A DNA stretch of 27,321 nt from a virus. This document shows, piece after piece, positions 10,901-27,321 of the stretch (position 1 is its first letter; every line of letters starts with the position of its first letter). The translations under genes were made by a program, and so were the position numbers. Location of the stretch: positions 1 to 27,321 of IMG/VR virus record IMGVR_UViG_3300022074_000301; one strand, 5' to 3'. The notes beneath the pieces were generated by a model. It searched no databases and was not told the DNA's origin. It worked only from the letters and a program-made list of their open reading frames with translations.

Positions 10901-11232
10901 GTGAGTGGCAATATGTTAGAACTAATAGTAAGGGTGAGCCTATATTTAGAAGGGATACTAACGAAACAAAGGAGTTTGTTGACAGTTTTTTAGATGAGAG
11001 AAACATCCCTTATCAATATCGTGAAAAGCCATTTATGTATTGGATAACCAACGATGAAGGCAAAGACTATGCGTATTTCTACACCACAGGAAGATGGTGT
11101 AAAAGAGTTAATAGAGGCTACCCAAAGATGCACTATCAAAGTAAGGGCATAGAAGACTTTTGCACTAGGTTTTTAAATAAATTTGTGGGGCAACCATTTA
11201 ATAAGAAGGAAGAAAATGAAGATAATACTTGA
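10897..11232 (+). CDS. Hypothetical protein, 111 aa
   Basis: ATG 10897 overlaps the helicase stop (ATGA) with GGAAGG ahead; an upstream in-frame start at 10843 lies inside the helicase and is rejected. The protein is basic and aromatic-rich (MYWITNDEGKDYAYFYTTGR, then WCKRVNRGYPKMHY) and seems to be a small beta-rich fold. Not recognised, but its place between helicase and polymerase suggests a replication accessory. It overlaps the polymerase start by 17 bases. Confidence 0.7.
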   Translation: MSEWQYVRTNSKGEPIFRRDTNETKEFVDSFLDERNIPYQYREKPFMYWITNDEGKDYAYFYTTGRWCKRVNRGYPKMHYQSKGIEDFCTRFLNKFVGQPFNKKEENEDNT

Positions 11233-13288
11233 TGTAGAGAACACAACAACTAAGCGTGATGGTAAGTTACATCTAGACCCATTTGAGCCTGATAATTCTT
11301 TGACACTTGTGGGTGTACAGGATTGGTTGTCTGATGAAAGCACTGTGTTTGTGTTTGACCACAAAGAAAAGACAATAGAGGATGATGAATCAGATAAAAA
11401 GCTTCAAAGAGTTCTTGACAACACAACATTACTAATAGGTCATAACCTACAGTATGATCTTCAATGGCTTTGGGCATGTGGTTTTAAGTATGAGGGGGAT
11501 ATATTCGACACTATGCTAGGTGAATACATACTACAGCGAGGTCAGAAGGAGTCTGTTAGCCTTGAGAACTGTGCTATTCGCTACAACCTTGATATGAAAA
11601 AGTCTGATACACTCAAAGACTACTTTAGGCGAGGCTTTCAGACAGACGAGATACCTCTTGAGGAGTTGTCAGAGTATCTTAGACAAGACTTAATGGTAAC
11701 AAAGGCTCTATTCTGGCGACTGATGGAGGAGTACGACAAGCCTGAGTCCAAATCTCTAGTAAATGTTAGGGATCTTACTAATGAAGTATGTAAAACGCTG
11801 ACTAGAATGTACATGAATGGGTTTAAGATAGACAAGGAAGCCTTACAGATAGTGCGCTCTGACTTTGAAGAGGAACTAATAGCCATAGAAAGACGCTTAC
11901 AGGATCAGGTTAGAGAGTTGATGGGTGATACACCTATAAATCTTAACTCTCCAGAGCAGGTTAGCCAGGTTATTTATTCAAGAATACTGTACAACAAGAA
12001 AGAATGGGCAGTTGCTTTTGACTTAGTGGAGGGAAAGGAAGAGTTTAAACAGGCTGTCAAGGATAATAGTGCCATGATGGTCAAAACAAAAGCTAGTGTG
12101 TGTCCTACATGTAACGGTAAGGGAAGAATAATTAAAACTAAAAAGGATGGTACACCTTTTGCCAAGCCAAACAGATGCCCTGAGTGTGATACGAGAGGGT
12201 ACAAACTTAAAAAGCTACGGCACATGGCAGGTCTTGGGTTCTTCCCACCGTCAAAAGAGTGGGTGAGTGCCAACGGTTTCTCTACGAGCAAGGGAAACTT
12301 AGAGCATCTTATAAATATAGCTAAGACAAAAGAGATGAATACAGCAGAAAGGTTCTTGACAGACCTAAAGAGACAGAGTGCTGTGTCCAGTTATCTCTCT
12401 TCCTTTGTTGATGGCATAGAGCATTACACAAAAGAGGATGGCTTCCTGCATGTTACCCTGACGCAACACGTTACGGCTACAGGACGTTTCAGTGGACGCA
12501 ACCCTAACATGCAGAACATGCCTAGAGGTGGTACGTTTCCTGTTAAGAAGGTGTTTGTGTCTCGTTGGAATAGTAAAGAGTTTGGTATGAAGGGTAAGAT
12601 ACTTGAAGCTGACTTTGCACAGCTAGAATTTAGAGTTGCAGCTTTATTATCGCAGGACAAAGTAGCGATGAAAGAAGTATCTACAGGTTTTGATGTTCAC
12701 TCCTACACGGCTCAGATCATCACTGAGGCAGGACAACCTACGTCCAGACAAGAAGCTAAGGCACACACCTTTGCGCCTCTATACGGTGCTACAGGATACG
12801 GTAGAACAAAAGCTGAGGCTGAGTATTACACACACTTTATGGATAAGTATAAAGGTATAGCTAAATGGCATAAGAAACTAGGTGATGAGGCTATCAACCT
12901 TGGTAGAATAAAGATACCCTCAGGTAGGCAGTATGCTTTTCCTGACGTAGAGAGAAGGGCGAGTGGTACTCCAACCCACTTTACCATGATAAAGAACTAC
13001 CCTGTTCAAGGCTTTGCTACAGGTGACATAGTTCCTATTATATTATTAGAGATGGAGAAGCGTTTGAGTAACGATAAGTTAAAGAGTGTTTTAGTAAACA
13101 CAGTGCATGACTCTGTGGTGTTGGATGTTCACCCACTAGAGGAAGAAGCTGTTTTAAATATTATCAAAGATGTTAATGACAATCTTAAAAGGATTATCGA
13201 AAAGCATTATGATATAGAAGTCAATGTTCCTATGTTATTAGAATCAAAAATAGGTGATAATTGGCTTGACGTTAAAGATGTATTCTGA
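11216..13288 (+). CDS. Family A DNA polymerase with DnaJ-like zinc insert
   Basis: A 690-aa T7-like polymerase. The proofreading exonuclease shows LDVENT (D6, E8), GHNLQYD (D81) and YLRQDLM (D158). The polymerase domain shows TGRFSGRNPNMQNMPR (422-437), motif A EADFAQLEFR (D466), motif B RQEAKAHTFAPLYG (511-524) and motif C VHDSVV (H631, D632). Between them, residues 296-324 have CPTCNGKG and CPEC, half of a DnaJ-type zinc domain, a known hallmark of HMO-2011-like marine phages. ATG 11216 follows AAGAAGGAAG; an earlier in-frame non-ATG start at 11183 is rejected. Confidence 0.96.
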   Translation: MKIILDVENTTTKRDGKLHLDPFEPDNSLTLVGVQDWLSDESTVFVFDHKEKTIEDDESDKKLQRVLDNTTLLIGHNLQYDLQWLWACGFKYEGDIFDTMLGEYILQRGQKESVSLENCAIRYNLDMKKSDTLKDYFRRGFQTDEIPLEELSEYLRQDLMVTKALFWRLMEEYDKPESKSLVNVRDLTNEVCKTLTRMYMNGFKIDKEALQIVRSDFEEELIAIERRLQDQVRELMGDTPINLNSPEQVSQVIYSRILYNKKEWAVAFDLVEGKEEFKQAVKDNSAMMVKTKASVCPTCNGKGRIIKTKKDGTPFAKPNRCPECDTRGYKLKKLRHMAGLGFFPPSKEWVSANGFSTSKGNLEHLINIAKTKEMNTAERFLTDLKRQSAVSSYLSSFVDGIEHYTKEDGFLHVTLTQHVTATGRFSGRNPNMQNMPRGGTFPVKKVFVSRWNSKEFGMKGKILEADFAQLEFRVAALLSQDKVAMKEVSTGFDVHSYTAQIITEAGQPTSRQEAKAHTFAPLYGATGYGRTKAEAEYYTHFMDKYKGIAKWHKKLGDEAINLGRIKIPSGRQYAFPDVERRASGTPTHFTMIKNYPVQGFATGDIVPIILLEMEKRLSNDKLKSVLVNTVHDSVVLDVHPLEEEAVLNIIKDVNDNLKRIIEKHYDIEVNVPMLLESKIGDNWLDVKDVF

Positions 13289-18425: not shown

Positions 18426-18453
18426 GGGGGAGCTTAGTCTCCCCTAATTTTTT
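18426..18453 (+). terminator. Rho-independent terminator between convergent gene blocks
   Basis: GGGGAG (18427-18432) pairs with CTCCCC (18439-18444) around a six-base loop CTTAGT, followed by TAATTTTTT (18445-18453). It ends the rightward transcript eight bases after the last stop codon. The minus-strand gene's stop (18444-18446) lies inside it; read leftward the hairpin lacks a good U-tract. Confidence 0.88.
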
Positions 18454-21400
18454 ATGTCGTCTTTGATTACCTGTATACCGGCTTCCATAAGTTCAACCTC
18501 TTCCAAAGTCATATCCCTTATAGCTGTATTTATATCCATTATACGTCTAGCTTTTCTGAAGATAGTACCCTTCACTCTGTCTAGTTTTTTCTTTCTATAG
18601 TTTAAACCTTGCTCCGTATCAGGCTCATATGTAATAGTTTTTGTTATGGTAGCCTTAACACCTTTTAACATTTCGTCTGCTAGAAGCCTCTTAGTGGCTA
18701 TGTCCCCTCTCATAAACTTTTTATTCTTTAATAATAGCTCAGACTCTTGTTCTAACAATGGAGTCATAACCTTGTTTACAAAGTTGTCATGCTCAGGGAT
18801 ACCAGAGTACATGCTAACTTTCCAATCAGGTAGGTTGACCATACCAAACACCATGTTAGCAGCCGTTCTTGGTTGCTTTATCTTAAAGCCTGTCATGCTT
18901 CTTATAGGACTAGGATCAAATACCTCTCCCTCTCGTACACCAACACGTAACTCTTCTCCCATAAGTTTGCCACTCAGCATCTCCACTATGTTGTCTACAT
19001 AACGACTAGCATTAACGGTTAGCTTCCCTAAACCGTCTGCCTGTCGTCTATCTATAGCTGTGTCAGTGCCTGAAGCCATACCTATAAGCCTATTTACAGG
19101 GTCGAATGGTCGTGTTGCTCCTGCTAATACGTTACCAACAGTTGCTCCCATACCACCCATAAGAGCTTTAACGGCATCTCCATCTCCCTCAGTTATCATG
19201 CCTTGCACCATAGCGACTATCTTAGTTAGATCACTGCCAAACTGAAGGTCTGTGGCAGCTTGACCAATAGCTAACTGTTGCAAAAGATCTATCGTTAAAT
19301 CTTTAGTATCGCCACCTGCTGTTGATACATTCATGTACCTTCCGGCAACCATAGCTAAAGAGAAAGGGAACATGTTAGTTACATCAATAACATCACCACT
19401 TCCTGTTTCCATTTCGTTCCAAGCATATCCTTTCTTCTCTTGTTGTGCCTGATAGTCTGAGGCTAATTTTAATGCCATACCTCCAACAAAGCCTCTGGAC
19501 GCAGCTTCAACAGCCTCTACTTTTTTACCTGCACACACCGCTGCCATAAAAGGCATAGCACCTGTTATAGGATTCCAGTGATACGCTGTAGAAAATACGT
19601 TGTTTACAAACCTACCAAAAGGAAGTATGAACCCAAACCCAGGAATATTTGAAACCGTTTCAACTCCCTTTGCTATTGTCGATCCAAGATTTCCAGGTGA
19701 ACGAAAGAAAGCCTCACCAAAGTTAGCACTCTGAGTTTTTCTAGTATAGTCAAATGCAAACACTGACTTCATGGTGTCGTCAAGAGCAGCATCCATGATG
19801 TCGTTATCAACGGCTGTTAAATCTCCCTTTGATAAAACGTCTGAAAAAGATGTTGCCTTTTGTAGGCGCAACTGTTTGTCGATACTAGCCATAAACATTT
19901 GACTCTTGGTTACACTATCCTGTAGCTTAACAGCAGACACCTTGTTAGCAAAGTCAACCACGCCTTCTGTAATATTAAACGCTAAGTTTGCTTTATCTAT
20001 ATTAAATCTATCTGCCGTTCTCTCAATACCTCCGGCAAATGTTTCAAATATTCTTCGTTTCGCTTTTGGGTCAGCCTCAAGAACTTCAAGGTAAGTATCA
20101 AACGTGGTGTATGGATCAAAGAAGTTTTTTAGTTTTATAGACTGTAGTTCAAACAAAGCTTTAGCCTGAGCAAGGTTCTTTGTGCCACCCTCTGTTAAAG
20201 GTCCTCCCTTTATAAGACCTATCATCCCATATGTGCCTGTTTGAAATAACTCAGCCACACTATTCGCAGCGTAGTAGCCACCAAAACCTAACACGTTTGC
20301 AGCTGTTGTCTGTGGGGCAGATACTAGCAATCGTTTCCATGTGTTCTGTATATAGCTAGGGTTTATCACACTACCCTGTGGTGTTTCTTGCATAAGCTCA
20401 ACAGCTTCTTCTATTAATGCATCTGTTTCATTTAGTTTAAACTTTACATTACCAGACGCAAGAGCTTTAGAACTATTGATTGCAGATCCTTGAACTGCAG
20501 CTAAACTCTGGGCTGCATTTTGTATACTTCTGGAAACAACACTAGAGAGGTTTCTAGCTAGTATATCGGCTGTCTCCCCCAAGTGTATACCAGTGTCGTG
20601 ATAAACAATCCTGCCTAGTTGTGACGCACCACCCTCAGACATTTGTTGAAGAACATATGCTATCTTGCCTCCCTCACTCATGCCAGAGGGCAAGCTGATC
20701 TCTAGCTCGTCCAATGTATCTAGTATATACGTACCATCTTTCTTAGAGCCTATGATAGTGCTTAGAGCATCATGGGATAAGAACTGTGTTTTATCTTTTA
20801 TAAGTTCAGCAGGAAGAGTTTTTGTGGCAGGTATAAACTTTTCTACTATCAGATTACCATCAGCGTCTTCTCTAAAGAACTTAGCTTTCTTGTTTGTTCC
20901 TCTGAACTGTTCTAAGAAGGACTCACCTTTTAAAAACTCTTCTCCCTTAGCAGCTTGTTGTCTAAAGAAAGCATACTTGCCACTCTTCTCAGTCATCTTC
21001 TGCACGTTCTTTAACACTGCCCCTGAAAGTTTTTCTTTTTGTTCTTTCTTTAAGCTGATGCCTAGTTGCGTTTTAAATCTAGCTCTTTTAGTTTTCTTGT
21101 ATATGCCAGATATATCTGTTTTTTCTTTTCTTCCTGGAATAGCTCTCATAGCCAAGCCTGTTCCTAAGCCAGAACCTGCGGCAGAAAACAATGTTTGGAA
21201 AGGGTCGTAAAACTCTCTAGACTGTGCGTCTATTTCTGTCGTCTGTAGCATTGCGTCTTGTCCTACAACCACACCGGCATCAGCCACTCCTGTTAACCCT
21301 GCAGCGTAGAAAGCTTTTTTGTTGGCTGCTTTCTTAACAACATCATTAAAAGCTTTTTGAGCAAACTCTTTGCCGTTCTCTCTAAAGCCTTGCATGTAGG

Positions 21401-21908
21401 CTTGTTGAGCAGCTTTTTTAACGCCTTGAACAGCGGCTTTTCCTGCGACTGCACCAACCACTTTACCTGCACCAAGACCAAAATAGGTGGAGGGTGATGT
21501 TGCTATTGACTGTATGTAGTCTCCAACACCACTAATAGCCCCTGACAGCCCATCGTTTACAAATACATTACCTAGTTTATCATATATGGAATAGGCTTCT
21601 CCTGCTCTACGCTTGGCAAACCCATCAGCTTTCTTCATATACAAAGCCTCACTTACAGTCACAGCTTCGTTAGTGTTAAAGAACCTCATGTGCTTTGTGA
21701 ACTTATCAATAACTTCTTCACCGTCCATGTTGGCAAACTGCTTACCCTTACGATCTATCATGTACGCTCGTATAGGCTCTAACAACTCTGGATCAGTTTC
21801 TAAGTCTGTTATGGTTAAAGCTTCACCATTGTTACCGGCTCTAGTTGTAAGATCTAGTTTAGCTCTAGGTGGTTGGTATGTAGTCTCAAACTCATCAAAC
21901 ATTCCCAT
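18444..21908 (-). CDS. Large putative internal virion / ejection protein, 1154 aa
   Basis: The longest gene of the window and last of the leftward late block, starting ATG at 21908 after GAGGT. The protein has a charged N-terminal part (to about residue 110), then alanine- and glycine-rich hydrophobic stretches at about 118-250 and again near 520-545 and 790-815 (IPGFGFILPFGRF), mixed with long helices. Size, composition and last place in a 183-552-1154 aa series recall T7 gp16, which enters the cell envelope during DNA ejection. Unlike T7, the transglycosylase is in a separate gene. Function is inferred from context. Confidence 0.65.
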   Translation of the reverse strand: MGMFDEFETTYQPPRAKLDLTTRAGNNGEALTITDLETDPELLEPIRAYMIDRKGKQFANMDGEEVIDKFTKHMRFFNTNEAVTVSEALYMKKADGFAKRRAGEAYSIYDKLGNVFVNDGLSGAISGVGDYIQSIATSPSTYFGLGAGKVVGAVAGKAAVQGVKKAAQQAYMQGFRENGKEFAQKAFNDVVKKAANKKAFYAAGLTGVADAGVVVGQDAMLQTTEIDAQSREFYDPFQTLFSAAGSGLGTGLAMRAIPGRKEKTDISGIYKKTKRARFKTQLGISLKKEQKEKLSGAVLKNVQKMTEKSGKYAFFRQQAAKGEEFLKGESFLEQFRGTNKKAKFFREDADGNLIVEKFIPATKTLPAELIKDKTQFLSHDALSTIIGSKKDGTYILDTLDELEISLPSGMSEGGKIAYVLQQMSEGGASQLGRIVYHDTGIHLGETADILARNLSSVVSRSIQNAAQSLAAVQGSAINSSKALASGNVKFKLNETDALIEEAVELMQETPQGSVINPSYIQNTWKRLLVSAPQTTAANVLGFGGYYAANSVAELFQTGTYGMIGLIKGGPLTEGGTKNLAQAKALFELQSIKLKNFFDPYTTFDTYLEVLEADPKAKRRIFETFAGGIERTADRFNIDKANLAFNITEGVVDFANKVSAVKLQDSVTKSQMFMASIDKQLRLQKATSFSDVLSKGDLTAVDNDIMDAALDDTMKSVFAFDYTRKTQSANFGEAFFRSPGNLGSTIAKGVETVSNIPGFGFILPFGRFVNNVFSTAYHWNPITGAMPFMAAVCAGKKVEAVEAASRGFVGGMALKLASDYQAQQEKKGYAWNEMETGSGDVIDVTNMFPFSLAMVAGRYMNVSTAGGDTKDLTIDLLQQLAIGQAATDLQFGSDLTKIVAMVQGMITEGDGDAVKALMGGMGATVGNVLAGATRPFDPVNRLIGMASGTDTAIDRRQADGLGKLTVNASRYVDNIVEMLSGKLMGEELRVGVREGEVFDPSPIRSMTGFKIKQPRTAANMVFGMVNLPDWKVSMYSGIPEHDNFVNKVMTPLLEQESELLLKNKKFMRGDIATKRLLADEMLKGVKATITKTITYEPDTEQGLNYRKKKLDRVKGTIFRKARRIMDINTAIRDMTLEEVELMEAGIQVIKDDIKN

Positions 21909-21911
21909 CTT

Positions 21912-23570
21912 TTACCTCGTGTCCATTACAAGTTCTTGTTCAGTAGGGAGTCTACCAAATTTATCTTTAAAGTCTTGTATTGCTTGATTAATTATTTCTT
22001 CTCCACCAACCTTTCCTCTGTTTTGTCTTATCAAAAGTCTTAGCTTTTCAAAAGCTTTTGGATCTATTGTAGGAGCTACGTTAAATATTTTATCTCCTTT
22101 TTTATACACAGGAACTACCTGATTGTTTTTGATTGTGACTCCGACAAACTCTCCTCCATCAAAGGTAGCATCATATTTTGCAGACTGATCCTTTTGTCTA
22201 AACTCCTTAGTTAAATCCACATCTTGAATTTTATATCCTTTACCTGCTTTGAGCATTTCTTGTGTAGTTTTATTATGAATCTTACCCATATGCTCTTCCA
22301 AAGGATCTACAGTTGTAGCTATCATAGGATCTTTAAAACCTTTCTTTTTTATGTAATCGTTTAAAAGATATGCTTGAGAAGCTTTTACTCTTAGTAATGT
22401 TTTAGGGGCTGCCTTACCTCTAAACTTATCAACATCCAAACTATAGAAATAAATAAACTCATTGTCTGAACTTATATCTTCCTCTTTTGTTAACTCAATA
22501 GGCTCACCAAACTCTGTCTCCAGTTTGTTTGTTGCCTCTACTGCACTACCAACAGTCTTTGTTATATTCTCTGCTTCTTGTTCTGGACTCTCCACTTCAA
22601 CTTTAGCGTCTACTAAAAAGGAAAGTTGCTTCTTTGCATAGTCTGGTATGCCGTTTGGAAAAAATACTTGTGCTACTTTATCTCTTGCCTTACCCTCAGC
22701 CCACTTAACAAACATGTCATAAAACTTTCCAGAGCCATTATCTAGTTGCCTCTGCACCTGACCTCTTTCGTTGTCAGTAAGTGTTAATGTACTTAGAAAA
22801 GCACTATGATTTGAGGCTTTCTTAAAAGACGTAGACTCAGTAAAGTATCTGCTTGCTGCAAGTCTAGCTGTCTGTTCATCAACTACTTTTGGTAGAGAAG
22901 TTATTGAAGGAGTAGCGACTTGGAATGTACCCTCACCAAATATGTTTCTGTAGTCATCATCTTCTGCCATTCTATTTAGTTCAGCCACACTTATATTACC
23001 AAGATACTTCTCTGTTTCAAGCTTTCTTTTCATTCTCTCTTTAGCGTTGATACCCATAGCTCCCATGAACAGATTACCCATGTTAGCCTCTGTACTATCT
23101 GGTTTTTGTACGCTGTCATGCTCTTGTGCCAGATTAAAGGTCTGCTTCCAGAAGTCCTCCATCTTTATGTCACCTGTTTTAAACTGTTCTGGTATATCCA
23201 TTAATGATTTTACTTCAGCAGGACCAAACTCTACGTTAGGGTTATCTAGTGTTTTTAGTTGTTGCTTTTGTATTACACCGTATAGGGACTGTAGGGCAGG
23301 TAATCCATCTTTAGCGTAAAACATGATAGCTCTATTAGCCTCGTCAGCGTTGAAGTCTGGTTGATCTGAGCCTAAAGCTTTTCGTATAGCTGAAGCATAG
23401 CCTTGAGCTGCCTTCATCTTCATCTTTCTCTCTTTGTATACCTTCATGCTACGCTTGGCTCGTTCTCTTTCTCTTTCACCAAACTCCTGTGCTTTCTTTT
23501 GTCTCTCCTGTATACCTCCAGTAAGAGAGTTTAGAAACGCTGTAGCAAACGCCTGACCATCAAAACCCAT
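21912..23570 (-). CDS. Putative internal virion protein, 552 aa
   Basis: Starts ATG 23570, coupled to the upstream gene by TAATG with AGGAG ahead. The N-terminus (MGFDGQAFATAFLNSLTGGI) leads into a very basic charged helix (QKKAQEFGERERERAKRSMK) likely to be a coiled coil; the rest is mixed, with many charged residues and no enzyme motif I can name. Position between the 183- and 1154-aa genes recalls T7 gp15. The next gene begins three bases after its stop. Structural role inferred. Confidence 0.6.
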   Translation of the reverse strand: MGFDGQAFATAFLNSLTGGIQERQKKAQEFGERERERAKRSMKVYKERKMKMKAAQGYASAIRKALGSDQPDFNADEANRAIMFYAKDGLPALQSLYGVIQKQQLKTLDNPNVEFGPAEVKSLMDIPEQFKTGDIKMEDFWKQTFNLAQEHDSVQKPDSTEANMGNLFMGAMGINAKERMKRKLETEKYLGNISVAELNRMAEDDDYRNIFGEGTFQVATPSITSLPKVVDEQTARLAASRYFTESTSFKKASNHSAFLSTLTLTDNERGQVQRQLDNGSGKFYDMFVKWAEGKARDKVAQVFFPNGIPDYAKKQLSFLVDAKVEVESPEQEAENITKTVGSAVEATNKLETEFGEPIELTKEEDISSDNEFIYFYSLDVDKFRGKAAPKTLLRVKASQAYLLNDYIKKKGFKDPMIATTVDPLEEHMGKIHNKTTQEMLKAGKGYKIQDVDLTKEFRQKDQSAKYDATFDGGEFVGVTIKNNQVVPVYKKGDKIFNVAPTIDPKAFEKLRLLIRQNRGKVGGEEIINQAIQDFKDKFGRLPTEQELVMDTR

Positions 23571-24121
23571 TACATACTCCTTGACATTAACCCACCACCT
23601 GCTTGAGGCTCTTGCTCAGGCATCTCTTGTGGTGCTTCTTGTGGTGGCTCTTGCTCTGTGGCTTCCATAGCTGATACCACAAACTCTGTGCCTTGATCTT
23701 TTTCGTCAACCTTTTCCAAAAATCTCTTAACAGAACTAGCCAACCTTTGTTTCTCCTTACCCTGCAATCTTTGCTCGTCTGTTACAGGCATCTCTCTAAA
23801 CTCTACATCATATGTTTTTGCTGTACTCTTTATCACTTCATGTAGAACAGGAGCTATGAGTAGTCCAACATCAATGCTGTGTAAGCCCTCCATCACACCG
23901 TTCATGTATATACCTCTTACCAAAGTGGACAAAGGGAAGTCGTTTTCTAGAGCCAACATTATGTCGTCAACCGTTTCATCGTTTGTTATCTTTGGCAGAT
24001 AAAACTTCAAAGCATCTTCTGGAGTGTCGTACTCTGGTGGACGCTCCCAAGCGTATTGCTTTGGCTCACCAGTTAGTGACTGACCAGGAATGGCTGTAGT
24101 AAAGTTTGGTTCTTGTATCAT
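23570..24121 (-). CDS. Putative virion protein, 183 aa, Pro/Glu/Gln-rich tail
   Basis: ATG 24121 directly follows the stop of the transglycosylase gene. The first 120 residues look like a helical fold (DETVDDIMLALENDFPLSTL, then MNGVMEGLHSIDVGLLIAPV). The C-terminal 35 residues are a low-complexity segment rich in Glu, Pro and Gln (EQEPPQEAPQEMPEQEPQ), then GGGLMSRSM. It stands where T7 has gp14, of similar length (196 aa). No sequence proof of this link. Confidence 0.6.
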   Translation of the reverse strand: MIQEPNFTTAIPGQSLTGEPKQYAWERPPEYDTPEDALKFYLPKITNDETVDDIMLALENDFPLSTLVRGIYMNGVMEGLHSIDVGLLIAPVLHEVIKSTAKTYDVEFREMPVTDEQRLQGKEKQRLASSVKRFLEKVDEKDQGTEFVVSAMEATEQEPPQEAPQEMPEQEPQAGGGLMSRSM

Positions 24122-26368
24122 CTATGATTTCTCCATCAATCCTTTTGGTTTTGGTTCAGGTAGTTTAACCTCATCCAAAGCTCCTCGTTTTAAAAACTTT
24201 TCATAGCTTCCTAAGTTTATTTCTACAAACTGCCCCTCACCGTCTGGAGAACCAAACCATTTACCTATTTTCCTTACAAGATTATAGTCTTCTCCTCTGT
24301 ATGCTGCACCACCTATTTCTTTTATCATGTTCATTAGTTGTGCTACTGAGGTTACTTTTTGTCCATCGTTAAAGTTAAAACGATCTGTTATTATTAAATC
24401 GCCATCTTCATTTATTTTAACATCTGCTTGACCAAAGGATGTTTTTAAATTAAATCTTTTATCAGACAAGGCAAGCTCCTCCGTTGAATCATAGCGAACA
24501 TCAGAATATTTATCACCTGTTTCTAGATCTCTTTGCGTTTTCCAATCATCATAACCTATTTTTGCCGTCATGCCAGTTTTTATACCTGCATTACCTTCTA
24601 AATTATTATCTCTCCTAAGCATATCAACAGCTATGTCAGCTAATATATTTTTATAGTCTTTGCTTAACATCTTTTCTGTAAACTTGTAATTGTCTTTTAT
24701 CTTTTCACTTGCAAGAACGTCTGTTGCGAACAATCTAACATTTGGTGGCACATAGTCTAAAACAGAATCCCATCCATTTTTAAGTATATCAGCTATGCCT
24801 TTTTCATCTAAGTTCTTATCTAGCACTAAACTACTGTCAATCTGATTATCCTTAGGAGTAGAAGCCTGTGCTTTACCAAATAAATTATCTAGGCTAGGAA
24901 GAGAAAATCCTGCAGTCACTACACCTTGTTTTTCATCTACCGTTCTTTCCTCAACACCTTCTTTTTTCTTAAAAGGATTTAAAAAACTTAGATCAACATT
25001 AGGTTTAAACTCCCCACCTAAACCAAGCATACCACTCTGAGTAGATCCTCCACTGCCCAAAGCCTGTAAAGTCTGATCTTTTACTTCACCTAAGTTACTG
25101 GACATGTTCTCTATAGCCACCTTTAGATTGTCTAGCTTTTCTCTTAGCTGTAGTTTTGTTTCCATAGAGCTTAGGTTCTTTTGTTCTATTTGATCTATTT
25201 CTTTTATGGTGCTTTGTATTTCATTCTTTGTTGTATCTGTAAGCTTTACTGATTCTAAATCTGCAGGATTTGCAAACATAGCATCTGCTCTACTTACGAG
25301 TAAGTTATCAAGACTGACACCTTTTACGTAATCTGTTGCAGACTTTAACAATTTGAAGTCAACACCGGCTACACCAGAAGCTTCGACTTCATTAGATAGA
25401 TTATCCATTTCTACAGCAAAAGAATCTTTTTCGTTTGGAGGTGTTCTATCTGCCCTCATTGTGTCAGCATCAAAGTCAAAAGGCTTTACATTCTTCATAT
25501 TACCTAAAACACTTTCAGCGTATTTCTTTGCTTGTGCTTTCTTTAAGCCTGTAGGACCACCGTTGTACTGTGCTAACATCCTGTAGTAATCTGTTGGTTC
25601 AGCACCGTATTTGTCTCTTTGTAATGCTAGATAGGCAACACCAGACTCAATAGACTTTCTTATGTCATACTCTTTAGACTTAGGATTCTGTTGTTCTCTT
25701 GTTATATCTAGCCCATACTCCTGATTAACATCTTTTAGTGCTAGTCCTCTAACCTGCATAAGACCTAATGCTGTTCCTGCATCTCCTGCTGCAGTGAAAG
25801 GATTTAGACCACTCTCTTTTATACCAACAGCCTTTACTAACTCAAAGGGCAGATTGTACTTTTCAGACATCTCATAGAGTATTCTATCCACGTTACTTTC
25901 TTTAGTGAGGATACCCGGTGGTTTTGTGTCAAAGTTTATTATATCTTCTTTTGTTTTTACAGCACGACTTAACTTTATGTTGCCCCCTGCATATATAAGA
26001 TCTTTAGTTTTAATAGCAGGGTTGTCTTGATTTAGCTTCAGTAATTCTGGAATAGTCATGTTAGCTTTTTGTGCTATCTGAGAGAGCGTATCACCAGATT
26101 GTATCTGATAGTCATACTCTTCTGCTGCGTATGCTCCATCATCATTATCGTAAGCTGTTGCCAGAGCATTTGCAACAACCTTTGATGTGCCTCCAACATT
26201 TTTGTTGTCAGCTAACTGCTCTACTTGAACTTCTGCAGTAGGTGCATTAGTTTGTTTTGCCCCTATGCCAAGAGACTCCTTGACATTCTTGTCCTCCTCT
26301 TTGTCCTTATCAAAGTAATCGGATAAGAAGTTTTCTGTTAGTTGTTTTAAAGAGTTTAAATAGTCCAT
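24122..26368 (-). CDS. Virion-associated lytic transglycosylase with LysM domain
   Basis: A 748-aa protein. A LysM peptidoglycan-binding domain lies at about 86-135 (YQIQSGDTLSQIAQ, IPELLKLNQDNP). A soluble lytic transglycosylase domain lies at about 160-290: catalytic Glu185 in VGIKESGLNPFT, GLMQV (202-206) and AQYNGGPTGL (266-275). The remaining 450 residues are helical and low in motifs, probably structural. Such virion proteins open a hole in the cell wall for DNA entry, as the N-terminus of T7 gp16 does. It stands with the other internal virion candidates and is not the lysis enzyme, which is at 6711. Confidence 0.88.
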   Translation of the reverse strand: MDYLNSLKQLTENFLSDYFDKDKEEDKNVKESLGIGAKQTNAPTAEVQVEQLADNKNVGGTSKVVANALATAYDNDDGAYAAEEYDYQIQSGDTLSQIAQKANMTIPELLKLNQDNPAIKTKDLIYAGGNIKLSRAVKTKEDIINFDTKPPGILTKESNVDRILYEMSEKYNLPFELVKAVGIKESGLNPFTAAGDAGTALGLMQVRGLALKDVNQEYGLDITREQQNPKSKEYDIRKSIESGVAYLALQRDKYGAEPTDYYRMLAQYNGGPTGLKKAQAKKYAESVLGNMKNVKPFDFDADTMRADRTPPNEKDSFAVEMDNLSNEVEASGVAGVDFKLLKSATDYVKGVSLDNLLVSRADAMFANPADLESVKLTDTTKNEIQSTIKEIDQIEQKNLSSMETKLQLREKLDNLKVAIENMSSNLGEVKDQTLQALGSGGSTQSGMLGLGGEFKPNVDLSFLNPFKKKEGVEERTVDEKQGVVTAGFSLPSLDNLFGKAQASTPKDNQIDSSLVLDKNLDEKGIADILKNGWDSVLDYVPPNVRLFATDVLASEKIKDNYKFTEKMLSKDYKNILADIAVDMLRRDNNLEGNAGIKTGMTAKIGYDDWKTQRDLETGDKYSDVRYDSTEELALSDKRFNLKTSFGQADVKINEDGDLIITDRFNFNDGQKVTSVAQLMNMIKEIGGAAYRGEDYNLVRKIGKWFGSPDGEGQFVEINLGSYEKFLKRGALDEVKLPEPKPKGLMEKS

Positions 26369-26376
26369 TCTATAAC

Positions 26377-27321
26377 CTAAATTTTAAATATACCGTTTAC
26401 AATAGCACCGGCAAAAGAACCCAATGCTGTAGAAAATGCTGAGTCTTTTACAGCGTCTGCGTTTAAATTCTCTTGCATCAGAGCAACTCTTCTGTTCTCT
26501 GCATTTTCAGCAGAAGTAAAAGCGTATGCCATTATATCTCGTTCTCTTTGCCAGATCTCGTCAAGACCTTTTTGTGTCAGTGCATTGGCTTGTAGTGCGT
26601 CTTGCCTATTAGCTTCGTTTTGGGCAGCGTTGTTTATTGTAGCCAACTGCTGTCTCCATTGTGCGTTAGCCTGTGCTATAACAAGCTGATTCTGAGCGTT
26701 AAACATATCTCTTTGGTTCTTTATAGAGGCTTGGAACTTCTCTAGTGCGTTCTCTTCTCCTGCATTGTACTGAGACATAGCGTTTTCTTGAGAAGCATTG
26801 AACTCAGAAACTTGTGTTTCTAGCTTTGCAAAGAACTGATCTGTTTGATTTTGACTAGAAGCGTTAAACTGTGAGGCCGCATTTTCAGCAGCTATATCTG
26901 TAAATAGTCCCTGCACAATAGACTGATTTTTAAACATATCATTCTGCTGATCTGCATCAAAGTTTCTCATGTCTGTTTGTAGAAAAGCATCAGCGTTTCT
27001 AATTGCAGCTTGTTGTCTATTGTTTAGGTTTGACATGTCAGCATCAGCAATAGCTGCAGCTTGTGCCATGATAACAGCTTGTTTGTTACCCAAGTTTGTT
27101 AGACTTGTTGTTTGAGCTAGTCTAGAGTTTTCTAGAGCTATCTGTACTTCAGCAGAAAAGTTTGTGTTAGCAATATCAGATATCTTAGCTGCGTTCTGTA
27201 CTCTAGCCTGAAACTCTTGGTCAAACTCCATGCCAAGGAACTGCGCTCTTTGTTGAGCTGCCAACATTGCACGTTGCTGTCTGTTGCTTAAATTTTGCTC
27301 TTCAAACCTAGCAACAGTCTG
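26377..27321 (-). CDS. 11-residue-repeat (hendecad) virion protein, partial at window edge
   Basis: The frame ends with TAG at 26377-26379 and stays open to the window edge, so its true start is probably outside. An internal ATG exists at 27267, but 18 more in-frame codons (RFEEQNLSNRQQRA) precede it. The protein is rich in Gln, Asn and Ala and is built of 11-residue repeats, e.g. FNASQENAMSQ, YNAGEENALEK, FQASIKNQRDM, FNAQNQLVIAQ (residues 156-199 from the internal Met). This is a hendecad pattern for a right-handed coiled coil. The C-terminus turns hydrophobic (FAGAIVNGIFKI). Likely a structural or ejection protein; exact role unknown. Confidence 0.75.
   Translation of the reverse strand, partial: QTVARFEEQNLSNRQQRAMLAAQQRAQFLGMEFDQEFQARVQNAAKISDIANTNFSAEVQIALENSRLAQTTSLTNLGNKQAVIMAQAAAIADADMSNLNNRQQAAIRNADAFLQTDMRNFDADQQNDMFKNQSIVQGLFTDIAAENAASQFNASSQNQTDQFFAKLETQVSEFNASQENAMSQYNAGEENALEKFQASIKNQRDMFNAQNQLVIAQANAQWRQQLATINNAAQNEANRQDALQANALTQKGLDEIWQRERDIMAYAFTSAENAENRRVALMQENLNADAVKDSAFSTALGSFAGAIVNGIFKI

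Follow-up and report, generated by a model that had tools for sequence, protein, structure and literature searches.

The question raised by the locus studied here is what protein is encoded at the end of a 27,321-nucleotide stretch of viral DNA (IMG/VR record IMGVR_UViG_3300022074_000301, positions 1 to 27,321; hereafter the window), where a minus-strand frame of 314 codons (26377-27321) has its 5' end cut off by the edge of the window, and what such a protein, rich in 11-residue repeats (hendecads), may do for the phage. No Pfam or PHROG match was obtained for the window protein, and the Peptidase_S74 domain was absent from it in the Pfam scan. The features of the gene are as follows.

26377..27321, minus strand: C-terminal 314 codons of the rod protein gene, an open frame that extends upstream in the relatives L007 and L008
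26377-26379, minus strand: stop codon of the rod protein gene, within 26377..27321
27265..27267, minus strand: internal ATG, the first of the frame and the start in an ATG-based call
26665..27321, minus strand: hendecad rod, recognised by its period of 11 and by the anchor distance (D) of 225 in close relatives
26491..26664, minus strand: constant C-terminal segment of 58 residues, from anchor N to anchor R, as in 36/36 representatives
26380..26445, minus strand: Gly/Ala-rich hydrophobic C-terminal tail (DSAFSTALGSFAGAIVNGIFKI), assigned from its position and from the hydropathy of relatives' tails

The earlier note had held that the gene is longer than an ATG-based call, and this was confirmed both by the repeat motif in the codons preceding 27267 and by the close relatives L007 (98% identity) and L008 (97%), whose frames run on for 385 and 423 codons beyond the upstream edge of the window and show no stop codon just outside it that would have contradicted that claim. 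The proteins of these two loci comprise at least 702 and 738 aa; both loci are IMG/VR contigs, the rod gene of L007 is itself cut, and in L008 an upstream stop is present, with the first Met as the second codon of the 738-codon frame. What the window contains of the rod protein is therefore its C-terminal part alone, about 40% of the whole. Within it the rod runs to the N of a NAQWR motif from a PIA anchor that lies outside the window, and is complete except for its first 7 residues; the rod of the nearest relatives comprises 20 hendecads. As regards the C-terminal tail, its 17-residue mean hydropathy reaches 1.0 in 22 of 36 representatives, which may point to a role at the membrane.

Periodicity was assessed by autocorrelation, in which the mean over the multiples of a period was compared with 1000 local shuffles performed inside 30-residue blocks. 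Over the 314 residues of the window protein the multiples of 11 gave z = 12.7 and those of 7 gave z = -1.3, the best lags being 22, 33, 11, 44, 66, 55 and 88, and a period of 7, or none at all, is thereby ruled out. The long rod that stays in register, as described in the earlier note, is thus strongly supported by this value and by the phase relationship set out below, while the piece from residue 134 to about 221, said to consist of unbroken 11-residue units, reached z = 11.4 over its 88 residues. The NL-NRQQ motifs are indeed spaced by 66 and 22 residues (window residues 10, 76 and 98), although in the numbering from the internal Met the latter two fall at 58 and 80 rather than at 59 and 81. 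As a background, 257 ORFs outside the family, taken from this locus and related ones, gave a mean of 0.2 and a standard deviation of 1.5; only three of them attained z of 7 or above, one from phage H6/1 that is annotated for ejection, one from CRP-3 and one from CRP-212. Of the controls, the P22 needle returned period 7 (z 7.0) and phiX174 H returned period 11 (z 3.6 in the same kind of test), and period 11 was absent from T7 gp14, gp15 and gp16, from P22 gp7, gp20 and gp16 and from SU10 gp20-24 (gp24 in part). In three long relatives of the window protein the C-terminal parts carry period 11 (z 10.4 to 13.8) and the N-terminal parts do not. As a separate observation, CRP-3 gp27, CRP-212 gp26 and CRP-738 gp28 (L089:4646-6091, L091:4471-5982 and L094:12-1466; about 480-500 aa), which are encoded directly upstream of a lysozyme gene, gave period 11 with z of 9.5, 7.8 and 4.2, respectively.

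The rod protein belongs to an unnamed family, which tblastn retrieved from 27 phage records at 26-62% identity; of 103 relatives found in a further search, the best 80 were kept. The family is carried by HMO-2011-type podophages, which are reportedly prevalent in the ocean (so the title of a 2013 paper by Kang), and by more distantly related phages of Rhizobium, Sinorhizobium, Vibrio, Aeromonas and Pseudoalteromonas. HMO-2011 phage1322_25, CRP-2 gp49, HTVC115P gp47, CHOED_013 and phiM6_25 are all members and are annotated as hypothetical protein only, the sizes being 706 aa in HMO-2011, 1014 in CRP-2, 685 in HTVC115P and 460 in CHOED. A genome scan with CHOED_013 yielded 34 candidate stretches, none of which was a prophage relative. 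Compared with the window protein, HMO-2011 gp25 (L002:13056-15176) and L035 possess an extra C-terminal stretch, which in HMO-2011 includes CWVAREVYG. The RCA phages CRP-1 to CRP-7 are described as short-tailed, and CRP-1 to CRP-3 as HMO-2011-type (PMC6918029). The same source describes, in HMO-2011-type phages, a DNA polymerase with zinc motifs, and at 11183-13288 on the plus strand the window encodes a DNA polymerase A in which CXXCXGXG-like zinc motifs can be discerned by eye between the exonuclease and polymerase parts.

How strictly the register is kept in the family was read from the distance D between two anchors flanking the rod, both mapped with two short HMMs that exclude nearly all of the rod. 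Across the 187 loci searched, block 1 was located in 183 ORFs, block 2 in 184 and both in the 180 that were counted. In all 180 homologous ORFs, whose D ranges from 148 to 665 residues, this distance equals 5 modulo 11, and each thereby carries the two anchors and the phase by which membership of the HMO-2011-type hendecad rod family, as defined here, was judged; the window falls 7 residues short of its upstream anchor, and in L007, which is almost identical to it, D is 225. Fifteen lengths were found, corresponding to 13, 14, 15, 16, 18, 19, 20, 21, 28, 30, 40, 48, 50, 58 and 60 hendecads, and the clusters are all in phase at every level of redundancy (96 at 90%, 37 at 70% and 17 at 50% identity). 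In a 20-member alignment, one row of which (the window) is without the first anchor, the spacing from the P of the PIA motif to the N of the SN..WR motif differs by -77 to +110 in total and varies at two separate places, at each of them by multiples of 11 only. The rod flanks show 36 different lengths before and 22 after the rod, spread over the residues modulo 11, while the 58 residues next after the rod (N to R) are constant in all 36 of the 37 representatives measured, the remaining one being without the second anchor. Among three neighbouring families, two vary freely in length from one conserved residue to the next; the third, that of the 183-aa protein, hardly varies over the stretch measured and is therefore of little help. 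Proline occurred inside the rod in none of the 37 representatives.

A larger unit is superimposed on the hendecad. Many of the rod-length differences amount to exactly ten hendecads, and in L285 a super-repeat of 110 residues is evident from an identity of 0.48 at ten hendecads against 0.14 at nine and eleven, with a DNA identity of 0.55 at 330 bp. The hierarchy of the rod is one of 11 and 110 residues. Modules of 110 residues were also observed in the long rods of L271 and L242, being clearest in L285. Three rods (window, L285 and L242) were scanned with TRF and no 33-bp tandem repeat was detected, so that it is the protein sequence that preserves the repeat unit. DNA-level tandem repeats as the cause of the pattern were accordingly rejected for these three rods, although long rods do contain modules of 330 bp.

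Hendecads in general form right-handed coiled coils, such as would then be expected of the rod, and the distribution of residue types indicates what sort of helix the rod would provide. Fourier analysis placed the peaks of Gln, Asn and charged residues at 3.66-3.68, i.e. 11/3, whereas hydrophobic residues, expressed as a ratio to shuffled sequence, gave 1.0 at 3.667, 9.3 at 2.2 and 11.7 at 2.75; without an 11/3 peak of hydrophobic residues, the rod departs from a simple coiled coil with a single stripe. On an 11/3 helical wheel, which like the rod profile used below was derived from the 37 representatives at 70% identity, acidic and basic residues occupy positions 4 and 8, glutamine lies opposite the charge at position 6 (43%) and position 2 (23%) and is also common at positions 5 (33%) and 9 (25%), and asparagine accounts for 67% of position 0. 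Hydrophobic seams run along one flank at positions 7/10 and along the other at 9/1 (Ala/Leu). Relative to shuffling, the hydrophobic residues have a first wheel harmonic of 1.0 and a second of 9.3 (12.9 with Ala), while glutamine (12.6) and charge (5.7) are one-sided. For the rod, a plain coiled coil of two or three chains joined along a single apolar stripe is disfavoured by this harmonic analysis, for which the P22 needle served as heptad control. A helix with two apolar seams touches two neighbours, as in helical barrels, and opposite faces of charge and glutamine with two flanking seams are as expected for a helix in a tube. Two AlphaFold2 monomer models were all-helical, with the helix broken and at low confidence (pLDDT 49.4 and 56.8), and the single match below E = 0.001 in a viral fold search, a 688-aa protein without name, superposed at an rmsd of 66.6 and was not used.

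A tube that includes hendecads is known from the DNA pilot protein H of phiX174, residues 151-271 of which form a decameric tube (PDB 4JPP). This protein was named by a literature search for hendecads in phage ejection proteins, which gave only the phiX174 paper and whose coverage is incomplete. When the rod profile was run on H, the best 44-residue stretch was 142-185, the hendecad part, with 17.4 bits, a score equalled by none of the 257 background ORFs (maximum 12.5) and none of 300 shuffles. H residues Q151, Q162 and Q173, which Table 1 of PMC7354561 gives as first residues of its hendecads, fall on rod position 6. Since T244, M251, E258 and Q265, at the start of heptads, are described there as inward-facing (PMC7354561), the three glutamines are by analogy taken as inward-facing too. 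Both H and the rods have hendecads that are rich in Asn and Gln, those of H being placed by the rod profile in one clear register with glutamine on the same face, and of the features of an H-type tube the window protein displays the hendecad periodicity and an amide face opposed to charge with two seams between. Sequence homology was not found, no H chain being among the PDB matches of the 44-residue rod profile (HMMER). Moreover, H has 3 hendecads followed by 11 heptads (PMC7354561, Table 1) where the rods have 13-60 hendecads, and H stems from an ssDNA microvirus whereas the rods stem from dsDNA podophages. The resemblance is read as one of design rather than of descent. Portal barrels, that of P22 included, are likewise helical DNA tubes, and the P22 barrel gave no match to the rod profile. 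Separately, the second best background match (11.6 bits) was the C-terminal part, residues 614-657, of the portal of Octadecabacter virus DB2 (L099:9497-11575).

The setting of the gene bears on its role as well, as it is followed in the window by further genes, the first of them directly.

24122..26368, minus strand: lytic transglycosylase of 748 aa with LysM and SLT domains (Pfam SLT 6.6e-12, LysM 3.4e-8)
23570..24121, minus strand: protein of 183 aa from a conserved family (APIPG..LT....YPW..PP), of which 13 members were aligned
21912..23570, minus strand: 552-aa cassette protein, at the same place in related phages
18444..21908, minus strand: 1154-aa last cassette protein, at the same place in related phages

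Behind the rod gene, whether or not other genes are inserted, 14/14 named phages have a gene for 164-198 aa and then one for 365-935 aa. A gene for at least 817 aa comes next in 13/13 phages for which that position was fetched, the sequence fetched for the fourteenth not reaching it. The 183-aa protein has no PHROG function, and the sole match of the kind among the neighbours was that of the phage Slicky01 homologue of the last cassette protein to PHROG 'virion structural protein' (2.1e-18). In HTVC115P a gene annotated as toxin-activating lysine-acyltransferase (L004:10892-11341) was noted right after the rod gene.

The rod gene opens a conserved cassette, the order of which recalls T7 14-15-16 and P22 7-20-16; a review (PMC8954989) describes a small operon with a gp14-like gene beside gp15 and a larger gp16. 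T7 gp14 and P22 gp7 resemble the rod protein in being encoded by a first cassette gene with larger genes behind it and in a Gly-rich hydrophobic C-terminus (by eye), and residues 37-139 of T7 gp14 are reported to form a hexameric helical channel (PMC8954989). They differ from it in being of near constant size (about 200 aa) and without period 11, whereas rod proteins range from 460 to more than 1000 aa. Homology to either was not found (hhalign probability at most 0.6%, with shallow gp7 and gp14 alignments), nor was homology found between the cassette neighbours and T7 gp15/gp16 or the 7-11 and SU10 genes compared; to judge by position, the neighbours may have a role in ejection. The injection proteins of phiEco32, SU10 and 7-11 (PHROG 4287) and gp17 of Pseudoalteromonas phage H6/1 (PHROG 598/6121) are, like the rod, rich in Asn and Gln and in some cases end in S74, and SU10 gp20-24 are reported to be virion components that are no longer there once the genome has been released (PMC9509320). 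Unlike the rod, SU10 gp22 and the 7-11 protein have no period 11, while H6/1 gp17 shares it (z 7.9). The phiEco32/SU10 injection protein exhibited no sequence or profile homology to the rod, and membership in the T7 gp14, P22 gp7 or phiEco32 families was rejected for want of a profile match. H6/1 gp17 (L096:5140-6216), which is annotated as an ejection protein, ends in S74 and has a match to PHROG family 598 ('DNA ejection') in its N-terminal part. The PHROG matches of CRP-3, CRP-212 and CRP-738 to 'DNA ejection protein' or 'virion structural protein' vanished once S74 was cut (CRP-3 and CRP-738), for which reason they were not used for homology.

Taken together, the chances appear about even that the rod protein is a virion ejection (pilot) protein of HMO-2011-type podophages, its hendecads forming a rod or tube for DNA delivery. 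In such a scheme the variable N-terminal part would carry a long proline-free alpha-helix of hendecads, several copies of which would lie side by side, each touching two neighbours via its pair of hydrophobic seams; the charged face would point outwards and the glutamine face inwards, resulting in a tube or bundle. This would leave the head with other ejection proteins and line the DNA path, much like the phiX174 H tube, the strict 11-residue phase keeping each helix face aligned along the whole rod, and the phages would alter rod length by whole hendecads or 110-residue modules only. The earlier note had proposed a tube for DNA ejection, in favour of which speak, indirectly, the two-seam, glutamine-faced pattern, the phiX174 H hendecad match and the gene order, the tube itself being what we infer from them. 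The adjacent transglycosylase gene and the short tails of the RCA phages also count in favour of an ejection protein. No virion proteomics for the rod protein was found in the literature. A straight rod of 665 residues would measure about 100 nm, more than the cell envelope or a podophage head, and the long rods must therefore bend, fold back or work otherwise.

Other explanations of the rod must be weighed against an ejection protein. It may be a trimeric rod in the manner of a fibre or needle, situated on the outside or at the tail tip, with a hendecad coiled coil folded in some members by a C-terminal chaperone, which we regard as unlikely. S74 domains, the chaperone of endosialidase, act on trimers, and Pfam Peptidase_S74 was identified in 3 of the 20 family members scanned (best 1.7e-10), ending the protein according to PHROG matches; trimeric stalks contain polar layers, which the asparagine found at one position in most hendecads recalls. 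However, S74 also ends proteins annotated for ejection or injection (H6/1 gp17, Salmonella phage 7-11) and so does not discriminate, no single hydrophobic stripe is present whereas the P22 needle is a clean heptad protein, and the rod gene stands first in a conserved cassette whose genes are large. Very long helices are, on the other hand, typical of tape measures, and the quantised, modular rod length, with long rods exceeding the thickness of the envelope, would suit a rod with an internal function, organising the core of the head or setting a length in assembly, without serving as a DNA conduit. This scaffold-like function seems rather improbable, given that a simple ruler needs no glutamine-faced, two-seam pattern and that RCA phages of HMO-2011-type, described as short-tailed, would have no long tail tube to measure.

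The phase rule could also be a mere by-product of recombination between similar repeats, in a rod without strict geometric need, and the 110-residue super-repeat of the long rods, visible in L285 at both protein and DNA level, is what such exchange would leave. We find this quite hard to credit, as the three rods scanned with TRF have no 33-bp repeat, the 180 ORFs show no indel between the anchors other than multiples of 11 even at identities down to about 30% or less, and two neighbouring families vary freely in length. With regard to the ejection protein favoured here, it is quite possible, though less likely than not, that marine podophages of a prevalent type possess a modular, glutamine-lined hendecad tube of tunable length. 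With its 13 to 60 units it would, when straight, span about 22 to 100 nm; it would gain length in steps of whole hendecads or ten-hendecad modules only, and would have arisen independently of the phiX174 H tube and the T7 ejectosome.

A hypothetical protein of ordinary appearance has here been found to follow a geometric rule that is both striking and general; that it functions as an ejection tube may reasonably be proposed. On envelope crossing by HMO-2011-type phages nothing was found in print. The 4.5-fold range of rod lengths, without a single phase slip in 180 sequences, represents a natural experiment on geometric strictness, and the variation in length makes it testable whether length tracks the host envelope, head size or neither. 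If the tube is true, these dsDNA phages would hold a second, independent conduit of the phiX174 H kind.
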